DNA from: Flavobacterium sp.
GTDB taxonomy: Bacteria > Bacteroidota > Bacteroidia > Flavobacteriales > Flavobacteriaceae
Reading direction: 5' to 3'
Assembly (NCBI RefSeq): GCF_023151265.1
Contig: NZ_JAKLJH010000004.1
Coordinates: 1 to 39,798, forward strand
DNA length: 39,798 nt
Part shown: piece by piece, positions 33,441 through 35,132 of the stretch
Numbering within the stretch: position 1 is the stretch's first letter
Layout: the number at the start of each line of letters is the position of its first letter
Position numbers and translations under genes: made by a program
Notes under the pieces: model-generated
Database searches by the model: none
Seen by the model: the letters and a program-made list of their open reading frames with translations, nothing else
Told to the model about the DNA's origin: nothing

Positions 33441-33473
33441 AAACCTGACAGGTTTCGAAAACCTGTCAGGTTT
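33441..33473. repeat. 33-bp palindrome, terminator-like, dispersed-type
   Basis: AAACCTGACAGGTTT, CGA, AAACCTGTCAGGTTT: perfect 15-bp arms, and each arm is itself nearly palindromic around one central base. It follows the OsmC stop by four bases and is followed by A-rich DNA, so it can end transcription. The AACCTGACAGGTT unit is, from memory, repeated in many Flavobacteriia genomes. Confidence 0.8.
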
Positions 33474-33551: not shown

Positions 33552-35132
33552 ATGCGTTGGAATCCAAAATCTAAGCCAAATCCAGAAAAAGTACAAACCA
33601 TTCAGAGCGCCCTTCAAGTCGATGAAATTATTGCGACACTTTTAGTTCAACGAGGAATCGAAACCTTCGAACAAGCTAAAACCTTTTTTCGTCCCACTTT
33701 AGCCGATTTGCACAATCCGTATCTCATGAAAGATATGGACAAAGCTGTGGCACGAATCGAAAAAGCCATTGCGAACAACGAAAATATCTTAGTTTTCGGT
33801 GATTACGATGTCGATGGAACAACCGCGGTTTCCTTAGTTTCAAGTTATTTACGAAGTTTTTATCCGAATGTTGCGACTTACATTCCCGACAGATATGCAG
33901 AAGGTTACGGCATTTCCTATATGGGAATTGACTATGCCGAAGACAACGATATTTCCTTAATTATTGCTTTGGATTGTGGTATCAAATCAATTGACCACGT
34001 GAATTATGCCAAAGCCAAAAATATTGATTTTATTATTTGCGACCATCACCGACCAGGCGATGTTTTACCCGATGCCGTTGCGGTTTTAGACCCAAAACGT
34101 GAAGATTGTTCGTATCCGTACGACGAATTATGTGGTTGTGGTGTCGGATTCAAATTAATTCAAGCTTTAGCTGAAAATCGAAATCAAACTATTGATGATT
34201 TAGTGGAATATTTAGATTTAGTTGCGACTGCAATTGCGGCTGATATTGTTCCGATTAATGGCGAAAATCGAGTGTTAGCGAAATTTGGTTTAGAAGTGAT
34301 AAATTCGAATCCGCGACCTGGAATAAAAGCGCTAATTCAAAATGTAAAGAAGAAAGTCTTAACGATTACGGATGTGGTTTTCATCGTAGCACCAAGAATC
34401 AATGCTGCAGGAAGAATCAAACACGGAAACGAAGCTGTTGCTTTATTAACCGAATACGATTTAGACCAAGCGGAGCAATTTGCCTCCGAAATCGAGCAGC
34501 ATAATTCCGATAGAAAAGAATTAGACAAACAAATTACGAAAGAAGCCTTACTTCAAATCGAAGAAAACAACGAGCAAACCCGATTTTCAACTGTCGTTTA
34601 CCAAGAAAACTGGCACAAAGGTGTTATCGGAATCGTAGCTTCAAGATTGGTGGAAAATTATTGAGGTCATATGTATGCCGCTGGAATGACGCTTTTGGAA
34701 GAAAACTACGAAAATTTCAAAAATACTTTCGAAAAAGTCGTGCAAGAAACCATTCATCCCGATTTGTTGACACCCGAAATTTCATACGATGCCGAAATCG
34801 AGTTATCAGAGATCAATCCGAAATTAATGCGATTATTAAAACAATTCGAACCTTTCGGTCCTGAAAATATGACACCGTTATTTCTAGCGAAAGGATTAAC
34901 CGATTCAGGTTATGCGAAAACTTTAGGTTCGGATAACGAACATTTGAAAGCATTTGTAAAACAAGGAAATTCGGAGAGTTTTGGAGCAATTGGTTTTGGA
35001 TTGGGAATTAAATTAGACTTGGTAACCAACAAAAATAAATTTGATGCAATTTTCTCTTTAGAAGAAAATGAATGGAAAGATACTGTAACTTTGCAATTGC
35101 AATTACGCGATATCAATACTTCAAATGGCTAA
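33552..35132 (+). pseudogene. recJ: RecJ single-strand DNA exonuclease, interrupted by internal deletion and in-frame TGA
   Basis: RecJ is the 5'-3' single-strand exonuclease of recombination and mismatch repair. The first part (370 residues) has D84, D86 and D88 in GDYDVDGTTA, DCG near 141 and the DHH motif D164-H165-H166, and runs to GVIGIVASRLVENY. Then comes TGA (34662-34664), and the same frame continues with GHMYAAGMTLLEENY and the C-terminal OB-like domain to TAA 35132. Intact RecJ has about 40 residues between these two points, including the Ser-Arg motif. Total codons (526) plus about 40 give the usual length near 565. The protein made is probably truncated and inactive. The MFS gene overlaps its end by eight bases. 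Confidence 0.88.

Follow-up and report, generated by a model that had tools for sequence, protein, structure and literature searches.

A 120-nucleotide gap in the recJ gene of a Flavobacterium draft genome: a probable local assembly error

Bacterial RecJ (TIGR00644) is a 5'-3' single-strand DNA exonuclease that combines the Pfam domains DHH, DHHA1 and RecJ_OB. In the RecJ of Deinococcus radiodurans, Ser371 and Arg373 are described as helping to hold the phosphate in a 5'-phosphate pocket, and kcat/Km is given as falling from 17.1 to 1.7 in the R373A variant and to 7.5 in S371A (PMC4846377). A second body of work concerns the drafts in which such genes are recorded. Metagenome assemblies are described as carrying local assembly errors, suspected to be especially prominent with IDBA-UD, together with wrong Ns at scaffold points; left uncorrected, these are said to spread incomplete or incorrect protein-coding genes through public databases (Chen et al. 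2020, PMC7111523).

The window analyzed here is a stretch of 39,798 nucleotides that makes up all of contig C5 (NZ_JAKLJH010000004.1) in a Flavobacterium sp. draft genome (GCF_023151265.1) of 2.76 Mb, 240 contigs and 96% completeness. Its recJ gene is an orthologue of bacterial RecJ with an equal start and an equal domain order, but it differs from the family in lacking 40 DHHA1 residues (motif VI and the first part of motif VII) and in carrying a TGA codon at the join (Table 1), over which the translation reads SRLVENY*GHMYAAGMT. A first-pass annotation had placed both halves of the gene in one frame with no frameshift, had judged about 40 codons to be missing and had explained the stop by the joining of a T to a GA. 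This molecular description stands. The frame is open save for the one TGA; in intact RecJ, ENY and GHMY are separated by 41 residues where the window has a single codon, a spacing read in the 27 of 29 loci that passed the pattern (L030 and L032 fall outside the count); and the shortfall relative to intact relatives is exactly 40 codons. When recJ is aligned to the gene of a relative, G012, the 120 nt form a single gap after base 1111 of the coding sequence, which falls inside the stop codon itself.

Both recJ pieces are 97% identical to the G012 gene, whose start and domain order they share. The named contigs nearest in RecJ are those of the Flavobacteriia MAG PH2015_08D_32_81 (98%) and Flavobacterium tibetense (96%), in a search from which the window's own records were perhaps omitted, and across the 5' half F. 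celericrescens has a RecJ with 98% identity. The 5' part alone scores 410 bits against TIGR00644, above the cut-off of 396.9, with PF01368 (DHH) at residues 78-228, and PF17768 (RecJ OB) lies in the 3' piece, behind the stop. Neither piece matches PF02272 (DHHA1) at E <= 0.001, but the intact homologue P0001 does. On an alignment to the solved D. radiodurans RecJ, from which the residue numbers used here (S371, R373, R393 and H397) are counted, the gap takes in two motif VI residues, Ser371 and Arg373, as well as the position of Arg393 in motif VII, and His397 is retained. A genuine deletion would be expected to leave no active RecJ, since the motif VI residues of the 5'-phosphate pocket would be lost and the stop would come ahead of the OB domain.

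Directly upstream of recJ, at window positions 33442-33473, lies a palindrome of the form AACCTGACAGGTTT-n-AACCTGTCAGGTTT. Two such pairs occur in 915,538 readable bases of the source genome, and none occurs in the stretches of G012 and of a further genome, G203, that were compared. The palindrome could be a terminator or else a small repeat element.

Table 1. Features of the recJ locus (window positions) and clean deletions in the sampled part of the source genome
Feature	Position	Strand	Loci	Description
recJ, whole frame	33552-35132	+		Open apart from a single TGA at 34662-34664
recJ 5' part	33552..34661	+		370 codons: DHH nuclease domain, linker, start of DHHA1
TGA stop at join	34662..34664	+		Join between 34662 and 34663; 120 nt of relatives absent
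recJ 3' part, same frame	34665..35132	+		Last part of DHHA1 (HMYAAGM), then the RecJ OB domain; earliest ATG at 34671
recJ	C5 (window), join 34662/34663			120-nt clean deletion
Beta-barrel outer-membrane protein	C132:11120-13903		L205	37-nt clean deletion
M1-peptidase-like protein	C136:5216-7495		L206	77-nt clean deletion
dnaG	C38:2231-4042		L262, L279, L280	46-nt clean deletion, frame broken
Fatty acid desaturase	C11:25165-26130		L234	30-nt clean deletion
TrmN-like methyltransferase	C27:5480-6099		L253	111-nt clean deletion

Gaps of the same kind were sought elsewhere in the assembly by comparing a sample of the source genome (G000) with the genes of G012, a single contig of 835 kb. The sample comprises 962,872 bases in 61 contigs, 915,538 of them readable and 19 short contigs masked; contigs were picked by number or through a chance match to the missing recJ DNA, not by lesion. 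Among 672 reference open reading frames, 310 were matched. Too low a similarity removed 62 of these and truncation at an edge another 13, leaving 235 testable genes at thresholds of at least 75% identity and 120 amino acids. Clean deletions of at least 20 nt, with no Ns, are present in 6 of the 235 testable genes (30, 37, 46, 77, 111 and 120 nt), and the other 229 have no clean gap of that size. Three of the six break the frame; the recJ deletion is in frame but creates a stop. Earlier runs on smaller samples had used other thresholds: at 85% identity or more and 120 amino acids (113 genes), recJ and two other genes had clean deletions, and a fourth appeared at 80% and 150 amino acids (157 genes). 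Several rows of the comparison of G012 with G000 were not counted as clean gaps, namely r119 and r341 (each with a gap amid numerous small gaps), r56 and r264 (where G000 has an insertion), r457 (an insertion shared by G203) and, for a net frame difference, r322, r106 and r479, the last two differing at gene ends. With G203 as the reference, 118 genes are testable and the recJ and desaturase gaps recur; the other four deletions, dnaG included, are aligned by base to G012 alone.

As a control, the G012 genes were compared with G203. None of 226 has a frame-breaking deletion of at least 20 nt, one has a clean in-frame deletion of 198 nt, and 4 show smaller net frame differences (r132, r233, r457 and r470). 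The reverse control, also with 226 testable genes, gives one clean 27-nt deletion and three net frame differences. The excess of lesions over the control genome is only suggestive: one grouping yields 4/235 for G000 against 0/226 for G203 (one-sided Fisher p = 0.067) and a count of all clean deletions yields 6/235 against 1/226 (p = 0.068), both groupings having been picked after the rows were seen.

The most telling of these lesions is in dnaG. The G012 protein scores as DNA primase (TIGR01391, 363 bits, cut-off 284), and a protein-level search of 8 relatives finds the gene intact in every one. In the whole source genome just the two pieces on C38 were found, and they lie in differing frames. 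Primase is essential, being required for replication of the bacterial chromosome. Because of this, and because no other dnaG copy was found, the 46-nt gap is almost certainly not real. The gap in recJ matches that in dnaG in kind: it is clean, has no Ns and shares hardly any bases across the join. A lethal-looking gap in dnaG, taken with four other clean gaps, makes the assembly untrustworthy at this scale. Judged by these comparisons, the 120-nt gap in recJ is probably a local assembly error (probability about 0.86), a reading favored over loss of RecJ because similar clean gaps occur in other genes, dnaG among them.

The N-runs of the assembly bear on how such an error might arise. Four occur in the G000 sample (7, 8, 32 and 44 bases), none of them inside the window. 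At C7:34848 (L230), in a gene that we take from its sequence to be recQ-like, 8 Ns stand in place of about 26 nt (an error of -18), and at C97:4626 (L209), in what is presumably an RsmB-like methyltransferase gene, 44 Ns stand in place of about 16 nt (+28). The lengths of these runs are wrong, whereas a mask preserves length, so they are scaffold joins of the wrong size; joins in the source assembly thus appear imprecise, with gap sizes misjudged by the assembler. A single N-run is likewise present in G012 (98 bases) and in G203 (198 bases), so scaffolding is not peculiar to the source genome. The lesions seen here resemble the errors described in metagenome assemblies in both the wrong local sequence and the wrong Ns; as that source presents them, those errors are known from absent read support, while the present ones are inferred by comparison with relatives (Chen et al. 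2020, PMC7111523). The fragmentation of the source genome suggests that it is a metagenome bin, and it may have been built like those cases.

In the proposed route, assembly would have halted at either end of a short stretch of recJ, after which paired reads or local reassembly would have bridged that stretch and the flanks would have been abutted without Ns. Living cells would then have an intact recJ and make a normal RecJ 5'-3' exonuclease. Assemblers based on k-mers do not normally invent blunt joins, so the route would need a scaffolding or local-assembly step. Some observations speak against an assembly error. There are no Ns at the recJ join, and the two measurable N-gaps are wrong by only the small amounts given above; in addition, the length of the recJ deletion is divisible by three, which also holds for 2 of the other 5.

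An unlikely alternative is that the deletion is real, in frame and very recent, which would make the lineage, or a single strain within a mixed population, a natural recJ null with a product of 370 residues. Some bacteria can lose recJ. Both halves remain in frame and the join is that of an exact, simple 120-nt deletion. The missing 120 nt have only short matches at chance level elsewhere in the source genome, and the other window genes compared with G012 contain no further stop or clean gap. No second copy of recJ was found, for which the first-pass annotation had proposed a search: intact RecJ matches just the two C5 pieces in the source genome. Other DHHA1 matches there are open frames of 340 and 888 amino acids, presumably, by their size, an NrnA-like protein and alanyl-tRNA synthetase.

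Set against a recent deletion, besides the dnaG gap and the four further clean gaps, are the relatives and the state of the gene. The best 120 homologues of the recJ 5' half (8000 scored) are all 556-566 amino acids long with DHHA1 present, and natural absence of the segment, which had been raised as a possibility, is seen in none of these 120 and in none of the 27 loci read; the gap is not a common natural variant. Against L004, the closest relative with DNA for this comparison, the 5' part shows a dN/dS of 0.028 and the 3' part one of 0.056, and the values between the intact L004 and L005 are 0.037 and 0.022. The window RecJ has 1 private residue, and the 93 homologues compared (those of the 120 with 566 amino acids and the same start) have 0-6. 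With dS to L004 at about 0.36, free decay over one tenth of the branch is estimated to bring some twenty extra replacements; in their absence, the lesion must be either very new or absent from cells. An old pseudogene is ruled out by the two dN/dS values, the one private residue and the single stop. The conclusion first drawn from the sequence, that the organism lacks its main 5'-3' single-strand exonuclease, is accordingly not supported, given the absence of relaxed selection and the other clean gaps, dnaG included; an assembly artefact, which had been named as the exception, is now the likelier explanation in view of the clean gaps of 30-111 nt elsewhere.

Wider searches describe how recJ is distributed. 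A RecJ match is present in 38 of 40 genomes and in 243 of 249 genomes of the genus, the source genome being included in both counts, and in 208 of 210 among the better genomes of the genus; the genus figures count genomes with any match, some with two, and do not tell broken copies apart. Short database proteins resembling the recJ 3' piece give 138 matches (87-268 amino acids among the 120 listed), and ten proteins were read from the homologue sets of both recJ halves; the short proteins may come from broken genes or simply be pieces at contig edges. In a 300-kb genome of the same order (G039), a recJ-like open frame of 576 amino acids is found at C1:263385, and its retention in so small a genome is a sign that recJ is rarely lost. 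A literature search found no report linking recJ, Flavobacterium and pseudogene, and no title about recJ loss in this group was found among the titles listed on RecJ and gene loss in Bacteroidetes.

Real deletions can also be imagined on a genomic scale. That the organism is a living recJ-null mutator, with a very recent blunt 120-nt knockout in a genome gathering many small blunt deletions, is quite improbable. Slightly less credible still is a genome-wide burst of small blunt deletions in a mutator or decaying lineage, with recJ as a victim or a contributing cause. Six clean deletions in 235 genes, with microhomology of 0-1 base at the six joins in the G012 sequence and none at the recJ join, would fit such a burst. 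The only dnaG found would, however, carry a frame-breaking deletion incompatible with growth, 229 of the 235 testable genes are free of such gaps, and the genome is 96% complete.

Several general causes for the lost pieces were considered. Deletion at direct repeats is rejected on the 0-1 base shared at the joins in the G012 sequence; at the 37-nt deletion, an ACGG repeat may be masked by a base difference and was left uncounted. A hairpin in the lost piece is strong in recJ only, where its folding is matched or exceeded by 3% of equal-length segments from the gene, and is not general. The lost pieces were also considered as stretches common to co-occurring species, but the conservation results are mixed (within the top 1.4% of windows when 13 relatives are used, but average with the four nearest), and the desaturase piece is conserved below the mean of its gene. 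The G+C content of the lost piece exceeds that of its own gene in all six deletions.

It is extremely improbable that RecJ is made as two proteins, a 370-residue nuclease half and a 153-residue OB half restarted at the ATG at 34671; 6 nt separate that ATG from the TGA and both pieces are open, but the 40 residues that include motif VI (with the Ser371 and Arg373 of Deinococcus RecJ) are in neither piece, and many relatives have this ATG as the usual Met of the HMYAAG motif.

Where a draft genome presents a lone broken housekeeping gene, a cheap check is to seek like lesions in genes that cannot be lost, as dnaG here. Taken at face value, the gap would enter a false record of a Flavobacterium without RecJ. 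It is present in the sequence file and is most likely not a feature of the organism.
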